This document shows, one piece after another, positions 37,541-51,819 of a DNA stretch of 64,000 bases (positions within the stretch are counted from its first letter, which is position 1; every line of letters starts with the position of its first letter). The stretch comes from Ichthyophthirius multifiliis. Lineage: Eukaryota; Ciliophora; Oligohymenophorea; Hymenostomatida. The stretch spans positions 1 through 64,000 of the forward strand of contig NW_004085940.1 in NCBI RefSeq assembly GCF_000220395.1, given 5' to 3'. The position numbers were made by a program, and so were the translations under genes. Below the pieces are notes generated by a model. It saw nothing but the letters and a program-made list of their open reading frames with translations. It did not search any database and was not told where the DNA came from.

Positions 37541-40038
37541 TCATAATGTTGGAAAGTCTTAATCTGTTAGATTATATTTCTAGCTTTTATTTAAATTTTA
37601 TTTAGATAAATAATCAGTTTATTAAGGCTTATTATTGATAACTTATTAAATGTTTTATTATTATATATTTTATAATAAATTTGATTAATATTGTTATTTT
37701 TATTACGATTATTATATTTATTATTATTGTTTCATTTAATATTATTATGTACTTTAATAATATATAGTATCTTACTATTATTAAATATTTTATATTTTAT
37801 ATTAATCATTTTAAAAATTAAAATTTGGTATATTTTTGTTTTAAGCTTGCTATGTCAAATTAAAGTTTGGTGGTGGCATATTAAATTATTACTATTATTA
37901 CGGGAAAGTACATTAATTTTTATAAATATTTTAAGGGATTTAATTAGGTTTTTAAAGATTACTCTAGAAATTTAGATTCTAAGGTTATTATTACATAAAC
38001 TCTTAACTTTTATTAGCATAAATGAATTATAATTATTTTTTACGATTATTTTACATATTAAAATTTTTATGATTGTTTTAATTTTTTTAGTTGATATAAT
38101 TATATTATTAAGTTTATTATTATGCTTATTATTAATATAAATGTTAACTATTTTAATTATTTTAATAGTAATTATTATTCTAATATTAGTTATTAATATT
38201 AATATTTTAGTTAACATTATAACATTAATTCATAATTAAATTATAAAAATATTATTAATTTTATTATGGTACTTATTAAATAGTAGTCTAATTTGTAGTT
38301 TATTAACCTTATTATTAAACTACTTAAGTTTAATTCATTTAATATGTATTTTTTAATTCATTAATTTAATTAATTTAATTCACAAACCTATCATTAAAAA
38401 TCTTCAAATCAGAATACTTTATCCAGTATTAAATTTTTTCTAAAGCGACTACTATATCATTAAAATGGTCTTTCCAAAGATCCATTTATACAGAACTATA
38501 AGGTCCTTATATTTATCCATTATCGTCTTTATAAATCCATATTTTTTCGTGAGTATTTACTTGGAGCATATAGGCTACATATTGGAAATAGTTTCCTTCT
38601 TTTTCTTATTATTCGGCTATAAGTTTTGCTATTTATAAGTCTTTTTCTTTTTATTTTTATTTTCTTCTTTCTTCTATTTCCTTTCTCTAGTTTTCTGTAA
38701 GAGTAGTTTTCCCGAAAATTTGCTCATCGATCTATTCGTTTAAGAGTTCTTTTTCTTCGTCTTCTTCTTCTTTATTTACAATTAAATTTTCGAGTAAATT
38801 TTGTTCTTTTTCTCCATTTTTTTCTTTTTCTTTTATTTTATTTTATTATTAAATATCTTCATCTTCTTAATCATAAATATAATTTTGAATGAAATTTTTT
38901 TCGTTTAAATCATAATCAAAAACTTTATATTATTATTGTAATTATTAGGTTTTATCAGAATTAAGAATCAAGTTTAAATCTTAAATAAAGTTATTATTTT
39001 AAATTTATTCAATATTTTTATTTTTTTCATCCTCTTTTTTATTTTCAATTATAATTTCTTCTTCTTCTTCTTCGTCATCATTATCTTATTCTAATGCTTC
39101 ATTTTTTCCAATCTATTATTCATTTTTATCTTCTATTTCATATTTTTAAAATTAATATTATTTTTTTTATATTTCATCGTAAGAAATACTTTCGCTATTT
39201 TTTTATTTTTTATCAGATTTTAATATTTCCTCATCATTACTTTATAAACTATTTTCTTCTTCTTCTGCACTATCACCGCTAACCCATTGTAAGGATTTAT
39301 TGCTTTCTTCATCTTATTATTTTTATTATTAATATTATTTTGCTATTTTTTCATCAATATCACCATATTCTTCTTCTAATTATTTATCTAGAATTTATTA
39401 TTAATTTTATTCATTTTCTTTTTTTTCTTCAACAGTTATTTATTAAAACTATTATAAGAATTAATCAAGAATTTTTTATTTTTCATTAAGATTAACCTAA
39501 GGAACTTTTTTTTCTTCTTTTTTATTTTTAAATCTTTCTTAATTAAATAAACTTTTATCAATTGTTTTAAACTCAAAATCTACGCAGGGTTCTAAATTAT
39601 TATCTTCAGCCCAATCGGGATCACTTTCGCTTGATTCATATTACATTTCTTTAATGTTTTTTTAATTATTCATTGTATTTCGGTTCTATTATTTATTATT
39701 GCATGCATTTGAATGTTGTTTTGGAATATTTTCGAAGGCATTTTCGACTACAAAATCTTCTGAATATCTATAATTCATAAATACTGGTTATTATTATTCT
39801 TTGAAAAACATTTATGGAAATAAATTTAATAGTCTTTCTAACCATTATTATTGTGCATTTTAATATTCACCTTTATTATAAGGTCTTTTATTTATTATTC
39901 CAAAATATATTTATTTAAATTTTTATTTTCCAACACCTTTTTGCTTTATAGGACCTCCTTTTTTTTCATCTTTTTAAGTATTTAAATGCATTGATATAGA
40001 ACTTGTATATTTTTTTTCTGGTTTATCACCAGGTTTAA

Positions 40039-40098
<60 letters not shown>

Positions 40099-40479
40099 AT
40101 TTATTATCTCTAGATTTTTCTCCTTCTTAATTATAATTTTTATTTCTTTGGCTATTTTAATTTTAATTATTACTATTATTATTTTAATAATTTTTATTTT
40201 TTTATTAGTTATTATATTCTTATTATTCGTATAATGAATTTCTATGCCTTGTTTAGTTGTAATTTAGTTTTCTATTTTGACAGATGCTTTCTATTTTACT
40301 TGTTTTAGATTCATCTTCTAATTAATTATTATCTTTTTTTGTATATATTTCCATATTTTGTTCCGTTGATTTTTTTTTTTAGTATATTTAATTAGACCAT
40401 CTTCTTTTCCTTTATCTCTATTTTATTAATGAGGATTTATTCTTTATTAATCTTTTTAATTATTTTACTGGGTATTCAT
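37541..40479 (-). CDS. GYF-domain protein with Q/N-rich tail (GIGYF-like)
   Basis: This - strand gene encodes about 970 aa. A GYF domain near 38400-38570 reads IWIYKDDNGQIQGPYSSV followed by QMDLWKDHF, matching the W-x-Y...GPF...M-x2-W signature that binds proline-rich peptides. Known GYF proteins (GIGYF/Smy2) act in translational repression and mRNA decay. The N-terminal half is polar and acidic with a polyGln or polyAsn tract at 40037-40096, a stretch ISMHLNTQKDEKK, and acidic coils just before the GYF domain (KEIEERRKQKQKEKD). After GYF comes about 280 residues of Gln/Asn-rich, prion-like sequence containing MPPPNFNL, ending LTDQDFPTL and TGA at 37541-37543. The preferred start is ATG 40479 (MNTQQNNQKDQQ). 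An upstream ATG at about 40660 is possible. A one-base break in an A11 run near 40380 is needed to join the first residues to the rest. From the GYF domain to the stop the frame is unbroken. Confidence 0.82.
40037..40096 (-). repeat. ATT trinucleotide tract (polyGln/polyAsn in the GYF gene)
   Basis: About twenty ATT units on the + strand read on the coding strand as TAA (Gln) in the frame that continues into FKPGDKPEKKYTSSIS. This makes it a polyGln tract in an otherwise polar region. Confidence 0.85.
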
Positions 40480-40892
40480 TGCTTTTGTTGAAACTATTTA
40501 TATATATATATATATATTTTTTTTTATTTCTAAAATTCTATTTTTTTTTTTTTTTTTATGTTCTAAATAATCTTTATTATTATTTTTTATATAAATAATG
40601 TGTATTTTCTCCCCTTTAATATATATTTATTTTTATTTTTTTCCTCTTGATAAAATCATTTTATATTTAAAAAAAGTAAAATTATATATTTAATATTTAT
40701 TAATTCAATAGAAATAAAAATTGCTTAATGTTCTTACTATAATAATAAAATTTAAAAAAAAATTAAAATAAAAATATATAATAAATAAAATATTTATATT
40801 TTTATCTAACAAAATATTTAAATTATACAACTATATATTTTTATATTTATTTATATAAAATTTTAATTATAAAATTTAAATAAACTTGATAT
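40480..40892. other. AT-rich promoter-side gap of the GYF gene
   Basis: The sequence contains a TA run at about 40499-40517 and T-rich stretches. A short open piece around 40600-40660 on the - strand could be a first exon of the GYF gene, but no splice gives a convincing peptide. The 3' end of the next - strand gene is at 40893. Confidence 0.5.
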
Positions 40893-43034
40893 TCATTATT
40901 TATTGTTCCTTCCTAATTAATTTGTTTGTACCAAAAAAAAATTATTTTTTTTCAACTATAAAAAAAATAAAGTTATAAAATAAAATTATTTAAAATAATT
41001 AATAAAAAAAATATAAATAATTTTATTAAAATTATATAATTATAATATTTAAATAATTATAAGAATAAAAATATATATTTGTTTATAAAAAAAGTCTTAA
41101 TATTATTACTCAATGCACATATAATAATTGGCTTTATTGTTTTATTTTTATAAAGTTTCTAAACTACATTTTTCATATGTACCCTATTAATTGGTATTAA
41201 TATCACTATAAGTATTATAATATTAAATAATTTCTTATGATTAATATTAATTTTCTTCATACAATTTATTTATGGCTTCTAAATTATATTTATGGTTTTG
41301 TTAACAATAAAATGATTAAGTATAATATTTTTGAAAAAATTTTTTATTTCTACATATTATATCACCAATTTAATAATACATATTACTCATTTATTTTTAT
41401 TAAGATTTAATATAATCTATTAGGCTATTTCTATGATTTTCGGCAATTTTATCTGGGTTAAATTCAAGGATTTAATTAAATGATTTATTTTATTATTTAA
41501 TTTTTTTAACTTTTTTCAGAAAACATTTTTTATTTGTTTCATAGTTCAATATTTAAAAAAATTTCGAATATATTTCATTTAAATCTACTTTGAAAATATT
41601 TAAGTTATTTGAAAATAAGCTAAAATTATGATCTACAAATGAAAGTGCAACTTCGAAAAGATTTTTTTAATTAACTGTTTGATTTTATTTAACCTTAAAA
41701 AATACAAATTTAATTTTTTTATAATATTATATTTATAAATGAGGAATTATTTCGTAAAACTAATCAAAATATAATTCATTTTAAAATTTAAGAGTTTACA
41801 ATGTATTATTTTTATTACAAATTTCGTTATCACATCTGATTATAAACTAATTATAATTAATTTGAAAATTTATTGAATTCAAAACGATAATTTTATTAGG
41901 TTATATAATATTAAAATCATTAAAAATACTTTGAAAATTAATAAATTTATTGAAGGTATTTTAATTATTAAAAACATTATAAATTCCATCTATACAAAAA
42001 CCTTATTTAATCACAGTATTTGCAAACTCAACATTTTTTTTATTATTATTATTCAGTATAATAAATATAATATAAAACTTATTTAATATTTTCAAATATT
42101 TTTTTATTTCATTCATTCTTCCTATTTATTATTCTTAAAAAATATTTTTATCCCAAAATTTTTGCACTAATAGATTCCCAAAAATTAAGTTTTCTCCTTT
42201 TATTATTAATATATTACTTTTAATATTTTGCCTTTACAAAACTTTATAGTTTAAATAAATAGGCTTTATTTGAGGGCAAGAAGATAATGAAATCTTACTT
42301 TTACTATTATTTAATTCTACAGAAAATGATAATTAAGATTCATCATCTGAAGACGACCAATTTGGAATATTGTTTATTTTGCATATTTTCTATGGTTTAT
42401 TAGAGAAATTTGAAGATCTATAACTATTGTTTTGCCTTTTTTTAGACACATGGGTTGATTTTATGCCTATAAAAGAATTCTTATAATCCTTTTTATGTTA
42501 ATTTTTTATTCTAAAAGCATTATTTCTTAAATTCATGTTAGAATTTATTTCTGTTTCATTTTTATTTAACTATTAGCCTATTATGTTCAATTATTCTTAA
42601 GAAAAATTTAAGATTATTTAATTTTATGAAATATATTTAAGATTTACATTTTAATTTAATAAAAATAAATATTACTTTGATCTTTTAAGAACTTATTTAA
42701 ATTTATTTTCTTTATCTTTTATTTTTTCTTTTGCTTGTTTTAAATTTATATTAATAGCTTTTTTATTAGATGATTTATAATTTTCATATTTATCTTAAAA
42801 TAAAGTGTTTTTAATATTTTTAAAATTATTATTATATTTAATCGATATTTTATCTAATGTCCCTTAATTCAAAGAGTTTGTATCTTATATATTTTATTTA
42901 TTTGCATATAATTCACTTTTTAATAATTCTCTTATGTTTCCACCACATTATTATATTTATTAATATATTGAAAACTTATTTGTATTTTATTTTTAAATTG
43001 CTAAGCTTTTTGGTCGTTTAATGTTTAATGACAT
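40893..43034 (-). CDS. Hypothetical protein, 713 aa, uninterrupted ORF
   Basis: An intron-free frame of 714 codons runs from ATG 43034 (MSLNIKRPKSLAIQKQN) to TGA 40893-40895, with dozens of internal TAA and TAG codons read as Gln. The first 250 residues are basic and Ser/Asn-rich, with a short acidic patch (WSSSDDESQLSF). The middle is more globular (IYLNYKVLQRQNIKSNILII, KYLKILNKFYIIFIIL). The latter part contains QILEFNPDKIAENHRN, YIKSQQKQMSNMYYQIGDII and a Cys/Tyr-containing YYTQSFYCQQNHKYNL. The last 70 residues are hydrophobic and AT-driven. I do not recognise a family. The clean long frame makes it a confident gene of unknown function. Its stop lies 413 bases from the start of the next - strand gene. 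Confidence 0.78.
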
Positions 43035-43890: not shown

Positions 43891-44562
43891 TCAAATATAA
43901 AGTTTACTAAATTTTGGAGTTTTAATATTTTAACAATTATTATCAACTACATTTTATGAATTAAATTTCCTTGCTTTTTGATTTAGCATATTTTAAGAAT
44001 TAAATAAATACATTTATTCTTTAAAAACATATTTTTAATCACTATTAAACTATTCTTATATTTATTCATAATATTTATTTGTAGGATAAATATTAGATTT
44101 AGTATCTGTATTTAAATATTTATATGTAATGGATTTATTTTCAAAATTTATTGTTTATTCACCTTTAAATATTTCCATTTTCGTTTCAAAATCTTAATCT
44201 AAATATTTATCAAAATTTTATTTTTAATTTTCATAATAACAAGAGTTTAAATCATCTTTTAAGATTTTAAGCTTTTATATAATCTTATTATAATTATCAA
44301 CTATTTCTTATTCATATTATTCAAGTCTTTTGCATATTCCATTACTAACTTATATTACTTATATTTAATTAATTACAAAATTTATTATGAACTTTTATTA
44401 ACATTATTAGCAACCATATTTTTTATTTAACTACCTAAAACAGTTTTCATGTATAACATGTCCGCACTAATTTATTATTATGCATTCTTATATTATTTTA
44501 ACATTTTAATTGCATTAACTACATTTACATTTCTAATTTATTATATCTTAAATTAAATTCAT
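43891..44562 (-). CDS. RING-H2 zinc-finger protein (223 aa)
   Basis: An intron-free - strand frame runs from ATG 44562 to TGA 43891-43893. The first 55 residues carry a compact RING-H2 pattern: CSQC, then C-G-H-V-I-H-E-N-C (Cys-x-His-x2-His-x2-Cys), then C-x2-C in GCQQC. That gives eight ligands in C3H2C3 order, as in E3 ubiquitin ligases that recruit E2 enzymes. The rest is coiled and polar (KRLEQYEQEIVDNYNKI, KLKILKDDLNSCYY) without membrane segments. The spacing between the first pair and the third ligand is short for RING-H2 and Ile-rich, so it may be a degenerate or related zinc ribbon. Probable role: ubiquitin ligase or scaffold. Confidence 0.75.
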
Positions 44563-44934
44563 CTTTTGATTATATTATTAATAAATATATATATTTTTTT
44601 TTCAATATTAAATTAAAAATATTTTTGTAAAAAAATAAATAAAAAAAACCAATAAATCATTAAATTTATTATTTAAAACAAAAATGCCTAAATATTATAA
44701 TCATAATTATATATAATAAATAATTTTTTTGCCTAAACTAAGTAGAAATATAAAAATATTTTTAGATAAAAAAACAAAAATTAGTTTAATTTATATTAAA
44801 ATAAAAATTAATTTTTTAAAATAACCAAATTAATTTATAAAAGAATTTTTAATAATTATATTATTAAATCTGAAAAAAACATTAAAACATTATTTTTTTA
44901 AAAAAATACATGTATATAATAAAAATATTTTAAT
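44563..44934. other. AT-rich intergenic stretch
   Basis: No gene is seen. The stretch is A/T-rich and separates the RING gene promoter side from a small - strand ORF. Confidence 0.55.
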
Positions 44935-45220: not shown

Positions 45221-47727
45221 TCACTTCTATTAGTTCATATTTAATTTAATATTTGTTCTCTTTTCCATAAAATCAGGGTCTGGCTATAATTCGTCTTTAA
45301 CAAAAGTAAAACTAATACAGTTATTTCTAATCCACTGCTTAACTAATTCTCTTTTCTTAGGGTCATTATTATAATAATTAATATGGTCATTATATCTATC
45401 ATTTGTTAAAATAAAAGCATCTTTTTTTCTTGCATAATCAATCATATAAGAATCATCATAATTCCAATTAGGTATTCCTATTGCTAATCCCTATTTTTTG
45501 TTTTAAATAAAATATTTTATATAATTTCTTTTTTTGATATAAATTTTTAATTAACTTTTTCTTTTAACTTAATTAAAGTATCTATTTCATCAGGTATTAT
45601 TTTAATATTCAATTCTTGCTATTTTTATTTTTTTTAATTAATATTTGAAAATATAAAAAATGGAAAATATTATTTACTTTATCTTTATTTCTCTTTTTTT
45701 CTATTTAATCTTAACTAAAACAAAAATCAGGTAAGAAAACATGAACATCAGCATTATGTTTAATCCAAAAATCGACAGCAATTTAGATACCTTTGGAACT
45801 AAATTAAGACTAACCAAATCTAATAGCTACATTCATACCATCTATGATAATAAGCAATTTTTTTTAAGGAATAATCTATTTTTTAATAAAAATAAATAAA
45901 TATATTTTTTTTTACTTTATTTTTATTCATAAAAAACAATTATTAAAAATCGTCCTCTAATTCTTCTTCATTTTAAATATTTTATCCTTCTTCTTGCTTT
46001 ACAAAAGATTTTATTTTTTCCATTTAAGTTTTGATAATAAAAAGCTTTACAGGAAACATCAAATTTATATCTCCTAAAACAAGCTTTTTTTTCTTATACT
46101 TTTCAAAATAAGAATATAAAGGTTTATATCCAATAATATCCATTTCTAAATCATTCAAATAATTAGAAGCCAATTCTTCAAAATCAATTTCTTCTGTTTA
46201 AAAATTTTGAATAATTTAATCAAATTTTTTTTAAGTTTTTTATAGAATTATATTAAAAAGGGACATTTACCCTGGATATTTACTAAATAGATATTCTGCA
46301 ATTACTTGATTTTCAATAAAGTAATAAAGAATGGGCAAAACAAGATTTATTGAATATTTATTAGGGTCAACAGTGTATAATTCGAAAATATGATTAAGTA
46401 ACCCATATGTGAATTTTAAACATTCACTCGCAATTTAATTTTATTCTAAAATTTTTACGGATAAATCATTAATTTCTTATATGTGTTCTTGGAATTTATT
46501 TAATGTAAAAATTATTATATTAACAATAAATTATAGAAGAATGCATTCTTTTTCTAGTTTCTCTTAACTTATTTAAGTTAGTAAATATTATATATGATTT
46601 TGCAAATATTTAAACATTATACAGTGAGATTTTATACTTTCTATACTTATTTTTGTTAATACTATGTTTGTGTAACTGTAAAAGTGCAAAACGAACATTT
46701 TAAAATAATTCTCAACTTAAATAAATCCGTAGTTATTGTTTTCTTTCTCAAATTAAATGCATTTTAATCTTGTTTATTCTAAAAATTCTTATAACTTCTC
46801 TTTACATTAAAAACCTTGTACACTGTAAAGAGCTCTTATGCAATAATAAATGGCAGAAAAATCATCCTCATTTAATTTATTTAAAGCTTTTTTATTTTGT
46901 TATTTGAATATTATTTTATTTTATAATATTCATTATTTTTTTACTTGCTAATACAAAATAAAACTTTCCATTAAAAGGATATAATTTTAATGCGTTGTAA
47001 TATTATTAGGCAGCAATTAATTGATTGTTTTTATTAGAATTTTCACAATAGTTTTTTTAAATTTTATCCCTTTTTTTTATATTATTAAAATAATTAAGTT
47101 AATTTTATTTAATGTATTTAAAATTATAAAAAATAATTTTATTTTTTTTACTTTAATTCTATGATTTCTCCAAAATAACAAAATTCATTTGCAATAATTC
47201 TTCTACTTTAATTATCAATAATAATTTCTGTCTCAAAAACATTTTTATAATTCTTTTTTAATAAAAATTGTTATAAAAAAAGATAATTTAATTTAAAAAA
47301 ATACTGCTTTGACTTCTGTTAATATTTATCTTAAATATTTAATTTTAAAATCAAAAATCCATAAATATTCTTATTAGTCTTTCATTGCAAATGTATATCT
47401 TTTTTATTATTCAACTCTTTTTTTGTAAATATCCCAAACTCTTTAATCAATTTTTTTTAACTAGCAAATTCCAAGTCTTTTAATATTAACAACCTACTAA
47501 TTTATTAAAGTATTTACAAAAATAAGCAATCCATATCACTTTTATCAATAATTACTTTTTTTTCATCTTTTTGCTAAAAAGTAATTTTATTTATTTTTTA
47601 ATAATCATAAATAATTAAATTTAAAATAAAAATTAAAAAAAAAAGTTATAAATATAATTGATTTTTTTTTTCCCATATAAAGGAAAAAAAAAAAAAAAAA
47701 AATATATTTATATAATATATATATAAA

Positions 47728-47775
<48 letters not shown>

Positions 47776-48508
47776 TATACATATTGGAAATTGCAGATTT
47801 TTTCAACTTTTTTAAAGCAATTATAAAGTTAATTAAATTCAAAATTATTTTAAATATTTGATATCAGTATATCTTAATGAGAAATTGGTAAATTAGCTTA
47901 TTCGATAATCTGTTCTTAATTATTTTATTATTAATCATGGAATTCGTATGTTTACCTTTGCCCATTACAATAATCTCTATTCTATATTTAATTTTAGTTA
48001 TAAAATGCTTTATCTGTTCTAAATTTAATATCATTTTTGTTATAATAGTGGTCACCTTTAGATCTATCAAATTATTAATCAAATACTACATGATTATTGT
48101 TATGCCCATTTGAGTCTATTCTATGTTGCATTTTTTTATTATAATTATCATTTTTATTTTGCCTGCATCCTTTATAATCATCAGCATAGTTATCTTCATC
48201 TGATGTTTAGCAGTTATTATGGTGATGAGGATTGTATTAGTTTCTTTTATTATTATGACTATGTTATTAAGATGCATGATATGAGTGCTTGTTATAGCTA
48301 TTTTTATTTTGATAATTTGCATATTCTTGTCTTGGTTAATATTTTCTGGTATTTTAAGAAGAATTCATACTTTGATCATCATCTTATTCGTAATTCTTGT
48401 CTTTTTTAGGTTTTTTTTAATTTTTTTGTTTAAATTTTTTAGTTTTATTTTAATTTTACTACTTTGTCTGTAATCTCCTCTGTAATTATTTTTATATTTT
48501 AAATCCAT
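45221..48508 (-). CDS. SMG/EST1-like TPR protein fused to a Regnase-type NYN nuclease
   Basis: The gene encodes an RNA-decay factor of about 900 aa. Exon 1 starts at ATG 48508 (MDLKYKNNYRGDYRQ). A 65-bp intron leads to a His/Asn/Gln-rich disordered region, and a long intron of about 190 bp containing a TA run (47731-47770) leads to the folded part. That part resembles the 14-3-3/TPR domain of SMG5/6/7 and Est1: RVWDIYKKRVEQQKRYTFA, FKIKYLRQILTEVKA, AAQQYYNALKLYPFNGKFYF, DDFSAIYYCIRAL and KYSINLVLPILYYF. After an acidic linker the C-terminus is an NYN/PIN-like RNase as in Zc3h12a/Regnase: KKLLIIIDGMNVAIRFGQSQ, SSKGIQIAVDFW, VHVFLPDF, then MIDYARKKDAFILTNDRY and ISFTFVKDELQPDPDF. The metal-binding Asp of IDGMN and DAFILTND are present. 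TGA is at 45221-45223. A one-base break in an A8 run (about 47450) is assumed. It would cleave target RNAs. Confidence 0.8.
47731..47770. repeat. TA dinucleotide run
   Basis: A perfect TA run of about 20 units lies inside a long intron of the SMG-like/NYN gene. Such runs recur in introns and gaps across the window. Confidence 0.9.
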
Positions 48509-49375: not shown

Positions 49376-50683
49376 TTTTTAACATGTTAATATATAAAAT
49401 TTTTTTATTGTATTTATAAATTACAAATAGTTTAGTTTTTATAATAAAATCAATATTAAATTGTTTTATTCACAAATTTAGATGAAAAATTAATTTAAAA
49501 TATATCATATATACACAAAGGTATAATTTTTTTATAATTTATTTTAATTAAACTTATTAATTTATTATCATTTTATTTTATATTATAATTTTTTATTTTT
49601 ATAATTTTTTTTTTTAGATTGGCTTTATAATACTTAAATTATTCATTTTTAAAATTTATAAGAAATATTTGAAAAAGCTTTTATTATAATAGAAGGTGAT
49701 AATTAAGTTATGGAAATGCTATCCTAGCTAAATTAAGAAAATAATAAAGATAAGATTTTAATATATTTAAAAAATAGTGATTTTCATAATAAAACTAAGT
49801 TTAAAGAGATATAAGGAGTATAATATTATACAAAATGGGAAGATATTAATTGGAAAAAAAGTTTAAATAATGATTCTATTTAACTAAATGTATAATTTCC
49901 TTAAGAAGAAAATAAATTAAGTTTACATAAAGAACCAATAAATATGTCTTTTAAAGGATTTAATAAAGACATAAAATTAGATTAAGAAATAATTATAGAA
50001 AGTTAAGTAGTAAGAGGAAATGGTAACATATTTTTTTTTTTATAATAAATTATTTGAAAAATAAAAAGGAAGGGCAAATCAAGATTTAGGAATTCCAACA
50101 GCAAATTTATTAGTAAAAAGGGAAATTTCTGTTAAATTAAATAACTTATTGACAGGAGTATATTCAGGAAAAGCTATTGTTGAAGGTAAAAAATATAATG
50201 CTTTAATTTTCATAGGATCAAGTTAATATTTTGAAGATTCAAAGAAACAACTAGTATAAAAAATAAAAAATAATATAAATATATTTATAATTATAAAATA
50301 ATTTATTATCATATATTTATATATACATAATTTTTTATTTATTCATATATTAATATTTTCATATATTCATATATTTTATTTTCATATTTTCATATATTCA
50401 TATATGCATATATTAATATATTCATATATATATATATTGATAGATTTATTTATTTTTTTTTAAAAAAAATTAGGAATGTTATATATATAATGAATTCTAA
50501 AATAATTTTTATGATTAACAAATCAAAATTTATATTTAAAGCTATTAGAGACCTGAATCAGATTTTAAGTGTTTTGGTATATTTATTTTTTTATATTAAA
50601 TTATATTTATTTTTTCAGATCATTTGATTAAATATATTCATAACGATTATTATTAATGTAAAAATATTCTTTAATAATAATGA
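48942..50683 (+). CDS. HAD-like domain fused to riboflavin kinase
   Basis: This protein is predicted to phosphorylate riboflavin to FMN. The C-terminal flavokinase domain is clear: VVRGNGRANQDLGIPTANL (the ATP-binding PTAN motif), LLTGVYSGKAIVEGKKYNAL, IFIGSSQYFEDSKKQLECYI and YNEFQNNFYDQQIKIYIQSY followed by RPESDF. The N-terminal part resembles a HAD hydrolase as in plant FMN hydrolase/riboflavin kinase: QIFDYNSLIFCVLRSYLLMQ in the place of motif I (usually DxDG), an ETFSAIPAEYI cap segment, and QFLQQNQYQIVLFTN in the place of motif II. The second motif-I Asp reads Asn, so phosphatase activity may be lost. Start ATG 48942 (MSQINQKFQKQ); stop TGA 50681-50683. Introns are inferred near 49270-49430 (TA-rich), 49520-49618, 50020-50067, 50253-50472 and 50578-50619; all but the first are supported by joined conserved peptide. 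Confidence 0.8.
49275..49375. repeat. Imperfect TA-rich intronic repeat
   Basis: Two or three TA dinucleotide blocks separated by short A/T interruptions lie within an inferred intron of the riboflavin kinase gene. Confidence 0.8.
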
Positions 50684-50954
50684 TTATTTTAATATGATAA
50701 TTTTTAGTATTAATTGTTTTTTATTTTAAAATTATAAATTATTAATAAATTTAGTTTATTAAACTAAATATTATTATGTTATTAAATTAATAGATATATC
50801 TATTTAAAAAAAAAGATATTTTTATATATTATTTTTATATTATATTAAATAAAATATTAATTATTTATTAATAAATATATATCTTTTTTATTTTAAATGT
50901 AAAATATTTATTTTTTATATTATTTAATAAATAATAATATAATATTTGATTATA

Positions 50955-51819
50955 TTTTTTTATTTTTTCTGTAATATAAACTTTTTATACTTTAATAATT
51001 TTGTAATTATTAATCATTTTTTTTATTACTATAAGCTTTTTTATATTCTTTAGTATAATATCTAGTATTATTTTTTGCATTATAAGTAACTATATTAGGT
51101 CCTTAATTAAAATTTATAATTGGAAACTTGTTATCACTAAGATATTTACTTTATTATTACAAATATATTTATAATTATAATTTTTATTTTTAATTAAAAA
51201 TAATCTCATTTTTTGTTAAAAATTATATTTTTTGGTTATAAATTACATTTTTTTACTATTAGAATCTTTTTTATTATTTCTAATTTTTATTTAATTCTAC
51301 TTAATATAATTAAATACTTATTTATTATTATTTTCTCAATAAACTTTCCTATTATTTTAATTATCTTTCAAAACCCCAATTAGGACAAACCACTCTTCTT
51401 TTATTTTTTACAAAATCTAAACTTTCTTAAAATCCCAAATTTTTTTTTAAATTATAGAATATACCACAAATGTTGCACTTCTACTAATCCTGCTGCACAA
51501 TGAACTATAACATTTCCTTTTTTAATCCTTAATCAATATCATTATATATCTAATTAAAAAATTAAGATAAATTTTGACTTTAATGATCTAAAATATTATA
51601 TTTTTTATGATTTATTTATTCTTTAAGATTATATTATATCCCTAAACCAATTGATATTGTTATAACAGTATTTATCTATTTTTCTTTTAAAGTTTAAGTA
51701 TCTAAAGCTGATGTAAAATCTCCTAAAAATAATGCTCATTGACCATTTTGGGTATTTTCTTCTAAAATTTTGTTCATAGATTTGTAATATTATGTAAAAC
51801 AGTTAATATCAAAAAACAT
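50955..51819 (-). pseudogene. Dual-specificity phosphatase with disrupted frame
   Basis: The - strand carries a dual-specificity phosphatase: ALFLGDFTSALDTQTLKEKQ, INTVITISIGLG, then the P-loop region NVIVHCAAGLSRSATF (HCxxGxSR, catalytic Cys) and ESLDFVKNKRRVVCPNWGF. ATG 51819 (MFFDINCFTQYYKSMNK) starts a frame with a TGA at about 51756, just before the phosphatase core. Three further one-base shifts are needed: in an A6 run before NVIVHC, inside the P-loop (GL-SR), and in a T4 run after it. All are deletions relative to the conserved protein, two of them in homopolymers. It is therefore either a recent pseudogene or a gene in a poorly sequenced patch. The C-terminal 150 residues are Gln/Asn/Lys-rich; the stop position is not certain. 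It would dephosphorylate MAP kinases or similar substrates if intact. Confidence 0.6.

Follow-up and report, generated by a model that had tools for sequence, protein, structure and literature searches.

The gene described here lies on the minus strand (45221..48508) of a 64,000-nucleotide stretch of contig NW_004085940.1 of the ciliate Ichthyophthirius multifiliis (assembly GCF_000220395.1), referred to below as the window, and in all likelihood encodes the ciliate endonuclease of nonsense-mediated mRNA decay (NMD), orthologous to Tetrahymena SMG6L. This explanation was based on the domain order in the window, on Regnase-type acidic residues in the nuclease half, and on SMG7/SMG6-like and Regnase-like folds in structure models of two relatives. 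The primary description of the Tetrahymena protein is reportedly that of Tian et al. in 2017. Excerpts of a 2018 review (PMC6173133) present T. thermophila SMG6L as a member of the SMG5/6/7 family with a C-terminal NYN domain that acts with UPF1 in NMD, and as conserved in many other protozoa. The original prediction, made from the sequence, that no protein with this domain order had been described was thus wrong, and the gene very probably encodes an orthologue of an already described protein type. New here are a corrected gene model, an apparent frame change in a run of A, a patch in the N-terminal region that is conserved with Tetrahymena, and Glu or Gln at the position of SMG7 R163.

Domain architecture of the predicted protein

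Translation of the minus strand with genetic code 6 contained all four motifs by which the domain following an SMG-like helical part had been proposed to be a Zc3h12a-type nuclease, and profile searches of both halves of the predicted 862-amino-acid protein bore this out. Residues 693–857 (45239..45857, a span including two introns) matched RNase_Zc3h12a (PF11977) with an E-value of 1.2e-26 (93.7 bits, cut-off 23), a match also found directly in the genome, and residues 342–619 (46117..47008, including the intron 46887–46944) matched EST1_DNA_bind (PF10373) with an E-value of 5.2e-6 (26.6 bits, cut-off 22). The splice model and the relatives place an SMG5/6/7-type EST1 domain and a C-terminal NYN nuclease in one predicted protein. 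In structure models of two relatives a 14-3-3-like/TPR helical fold was present, the best fold matches of the EST1 part being SMG7 and SMG6, and the nuclease half had a Regnase-like fold.

The nearest solved relatives of the nuclease by sequence were KHNYN (E 2.1e-12) and ZC3H12C (E 5.4e-11), followed by ZC3H12B and A. D698, D785, D786, D804 and D808, which we take to be the Regnase-type metal ligands, were all present and aligned to the aspartates of KHNYN. PF13638, presumably the SMG6-kind PIN nuclease domain, did not match the protein at E <= 10, in agreement with the proposal that the C-terminus is not a classical SMG6 PIN. A PIN_4 search of the Ichthyophthirius genome also returned no match, compared with 9 positives among 14 control genomes, although introns could hide one. 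The nuclease of animal SMG6/EST1A is a PIN domain, unlike the Zc3h12a-type NYN domain found here; SMG7, to our knowledge, has no nuclease domain.

By its nuclease domain, in sequence, fold and retained acidic residues, the protein resembles Regnase/ZC3H12A–C and KHNYN, and it might be asked whether it is a Regnase-like regulatory RNase on an EST1 scaffold, serving selected transcripts or a telomere or telomerase function and not bulk NMD. The EST1 part stands in place of the usual Regnase partners: no CCCH zinc finger was matched by Pfam at E <= 10 after the nuclease, the protein ending 5 residues past the NYN match, and in the 862 amino acids Pfam detected neither a KH domain nor any further partner domain of Regnase. 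With the EST1 part closest to SMG7 and SMG6, and the Tetrahymena relative reported in excerpts of the review to act with UPF1 in NMD (PMC6173133), a regulatory RNase appears unlikely.

As an SMG6L orthologue, the EST1/14-3-3-like plus NYN protein would act as the ciliate NMD endonuclease. The original prediction had guessed as much, adding that the catalytic module had been swapped. The first part is probably right, as it matches the published function; the swap does not follow, since the data would be the same had NYN replaced PIN or had it been fused independently to an SMG7-like ancestor, and NYN domains typically have four metal-binding aspartates, much like the PIN domain (as in SMG6), according to parts of a study of Arabidopsis DNE1 (PMC10226599). 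DNE1, of the MARF1 family, is likewise an NYN endonuclease interacting with UPF1; unlike the Ichthyophthirius protein, it is presented there with an N-terminal NYN and two LOTUS domains, the passages on its architecture describing no EST1 domain, and the share of its targets that increase in upf1 mutants, about 21%, is close to the background of that study (PMC10226599).

Relatives of the EST1–NYN protein

When about 5.8 billion proteins were searched with residues 230–862 as the query (6736 candidates; E <= 0.001), six hits were obtained: the deposited protein of the gene itself (P0001), proteins from T. malaccensis and Paramecium (two), and two metagenome proteins (P0003 and P0004; 35–36%). 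The best relative was T. malaccensis ABPG74_004766 (P0002; 985 amino acids), with 52% over 97% of the query; the Paramecium proteins (670 amino acids) gave 31–32%. Pfam matches above cut-off were obtained for the nuclease in all six proteins and for EST1 in five (three in the precomputed list). The T. malaccensis protein and both Paramecium proteins have the identical order of EST1 and NYN domains, and the fusion is also present in P0003 and P0004. Two further profile searches (7996 candidates sharing most words, and 5901 candidates) returned two proteins each, all already found; having given fewer proteins than the first, they are not a measure of the reach of the fusion beyond ciliates.

EST1 and NYN are encoded by separate exons and in different frames, with the junction predicted from sequence, as would be expected had two adjacent genes, one EST1/SMG7-like and one for a separate NYN nuclease, been run together. 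Just 40 nt of a GT..AG intron (45876..45915) separates the two parts, however, and the deposited P0001 is spliced identically across it; moreover, the fusion recurs in T. malaccensis, Paramecium and the two metagenome proteins, and excerpts of the review give one protein in Tetrahymena (PMC6173133). Two joined genes are therefore extremely improbable.

Within the Ichthyophthirius assembly (44.96 Mb, 937 contigs), the PF11977 profile matched at this gene only and a search with P0002 identified this locus only. Matches to the UPF1 zinc-domain, UPF3 (partial) and Mago were found in the same assembly.

Some observations weigh against the assignment to SMG6L. The Ichthyophthirius gene is known here from sequence alone, in contrast to T. 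thermophila SMG6L, a protein of another genus with a reported UPF1/NMD role, and in all sequence comparisons T. malaccensis P0002 stood in for the latter. The Pfam match to EST1 is weak, and in P0004 it is absent at E <= 1, although this protein can be aligned along the EST1 region. UPF2 was not found in the genome search, a search that gave no match anywhere, controls included. Finally, one frame switch in an A-run interrupts the open frame of the assembled sequence (see below).

Phosphoserine pocket, N-terminal patch and recruitment

Parts of a study of SMG7 describe its residues K66 and R163 as critical for the binding of S1096-phosphorylated UPF1 (PMC6739308). The pocket was aligned with three MAFFT modes, taking the SMG7 letters from 1ya0. 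The R163 column contained Glu or Gln in all six EST1–NYN proteins (E, E, Q, Q, E and E in Ichthyophthirius, T. malaccensis, P0003, P0004 and the two Paramecium proteins), in contrast to Arg in human SMG7, human SMG6 and worm SMG-7; the Ichthyophthirius residue is Glu319 (47157–47159), in the exon 47152..47252. An Arg in the helix IYYCIRAL was considered as the R163 counterpart and ruled out, R163 of 1ya0 being located in GDIARYR, which aligned to GEIIELK. The K66 column was Lys in the four sequences that reach it, the alignment there running through a short gap in a region of weak model; the codon of the Ichthyophthirius residue, Lys248, is at 47422..47424, the alignment being less certain in this part. 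The pocket formed by K66 and R163 is thus not intact in these proteins and, judged from the aligned residues, is altered, not erased. SMG6 itself has Tyr at the K66 position, so that the altered pocket is compatible with membership of the SMG5/6/7-EST1 family and speaks only against the phosphate-binding mode.

One survey, which speaks of eight alveolate genomes, had SMG1 in none of those it examined (PMC5709506). Together with Glu or Gln at R163, this reported absence suggests phosphorylation-independent recruitment of ciliate SMG6L, and docking would then not depend on phosphoserines made by SMG1. A strong reading of the pocket change is opposed by the robust NMD retained in SMG7 K66E knock-in cells, as given in parts of the SMG7 study (PMC6739308).

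A possible site of docking lies in the N-terminal region. The first 225 residues aligned to the N-terminus of the T. malaccensis protein with a score of 276, reached by none of 500 shuffles (maximum 178), and within them a conserved patch of 40 residues (111–150; 48000..48119) scored 123, a value well clear of the highest shuffle score, 62 among 1000. The N-terminal extension and its patch are lacking in the two Paramecium proteins. By analogy, the patch is a candidate UPF1- or ribosome-docking motif of the Tetrahymena/Ichthyophthirius line. We put forward tentatively, and with somewhat less than even confidence, the fuller proposal that ciliate SMG6L proteins keep the 14-3-3-like fold with the pocket Arg changed to Glu or Gln, and that a lineage devoid of SMG1 thus recruits its NMD endonuclease without phospho-UPF1, the patch at 48000–48119 then being the docking candidate in the Tetrahymena/Ichthyophthirius line.

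Gene model, neighbouring frames and implications

The gene model, from a predicted ATG at 48508 to the end of a TGA at 45221, was spliced by hand with GT..AG introns in a very A+T-rich window (10–21% G+C per 2 kb). It contains nine introns of 40, 52, 58, 59, 59, 65, 77, 82 and 207 nt, of which the longest is TA-rich and the other eight fall within 40–82 nt; for Ichthyophthirius, parts of a ciliate intron study give two length classes, averaging about 48 and 69 nt (PMC5014332). Exon 1 (48460..48508), with the start codon, is followed by exon 2 (47781..48400), encoding the low-complexity N-terminal region, which is supported by the alignment to the T. malaccensis N-terminus. Downstream of the start of the EST1/14-3-3-like region (47305..47573) and the exon with Glu319, the EST1 domain continues in 46945..47069, spliced identically in P0001, and in the long exon 45916..46886, encoding the bulk of the helical domain and also supported by the search with the T. 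malaccensis protein. The nuclease is encoded by 45678..45875 (first half, Asp698 at 45840–45842), 45556..45618 (middle) and 45221..45490 (second half and stop, with Asp785 and Asp786 at 45452–45457, Asp804 at 45398–45400 and Asp808 at 45386–45388). The deposited model, IMG5_190530 (P0001), is a 'hypothetical' protein of 514 amino acids matching the window gene at 100%. It begins at residue 261 of the 862-amino-acid model and hence is without the N-terminus, and it reads into the intron 45619–45677 and stops inside the nuclease, so that the latter half of the active site is missing.

The segment 47305..47573 is probably one exon with an internal frame change. Along the T. malaccensis sequence ...LSDLETASEKKIDQRLWDIYKKK... 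one frame of the window fits up to ASQKK and another from KKIDQRVWD on, without a gap, so that the frame switches inside a run of eight A (47451..47458, minus strand). An intron of 77 nt at 47441–47517, dividing the segment into two exons, was rejected because of this gapless alignment across two frames. Homopolymer runs are a frequent site of assembly errors, and we read the frame change as such an error in preference to a real frameshift within the run, which is the less favoured possibility. It is located upstream of the TPR–NYN junction, which is untouched. This single apparent frame change is also what might suggest a pseudogene decaying in this parasite; we consider that very unlikely, as the reading frame is open and the sequence conserved in the remaining exons, none of the five active-site aspartates is missing, the run is of a kind in which assembly errors are common, and no second PF11977 gene was found in the genome.

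Neighbouring frames were also annotated. Just downstream of the gene is a RING-like frame (43891–44601, minus strand; PF14634, 21.6 bits, below the cut-off of 27.9), and further on a long frame, rich in glutamine, that includes a GYF domain (37541–40951, minus strand; PF02213, E 1.6e-7, above cut-off). Upstream are a piece of riboflavin kinase on the opposite strand (49486–50493, plus strand; PF01687, E 3.9e-8, above cut-off) and a frame similar to the last part of a dual-specificity phosphatase domain (50638–51735, minus strand; PF00782, 23.7 bits, below the cut-off of 33.5).

The corrected public gene model restores half of the active site, and the assignment supports an NMD nuclease of the NYN type in a ciliate that parasitises fish. 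The change in the pocket offers a residue-level prediction for a question left open in parts of the review, namely whether SMG6L may bind UPF1 directly or via phosphorylation (PMC6173133).
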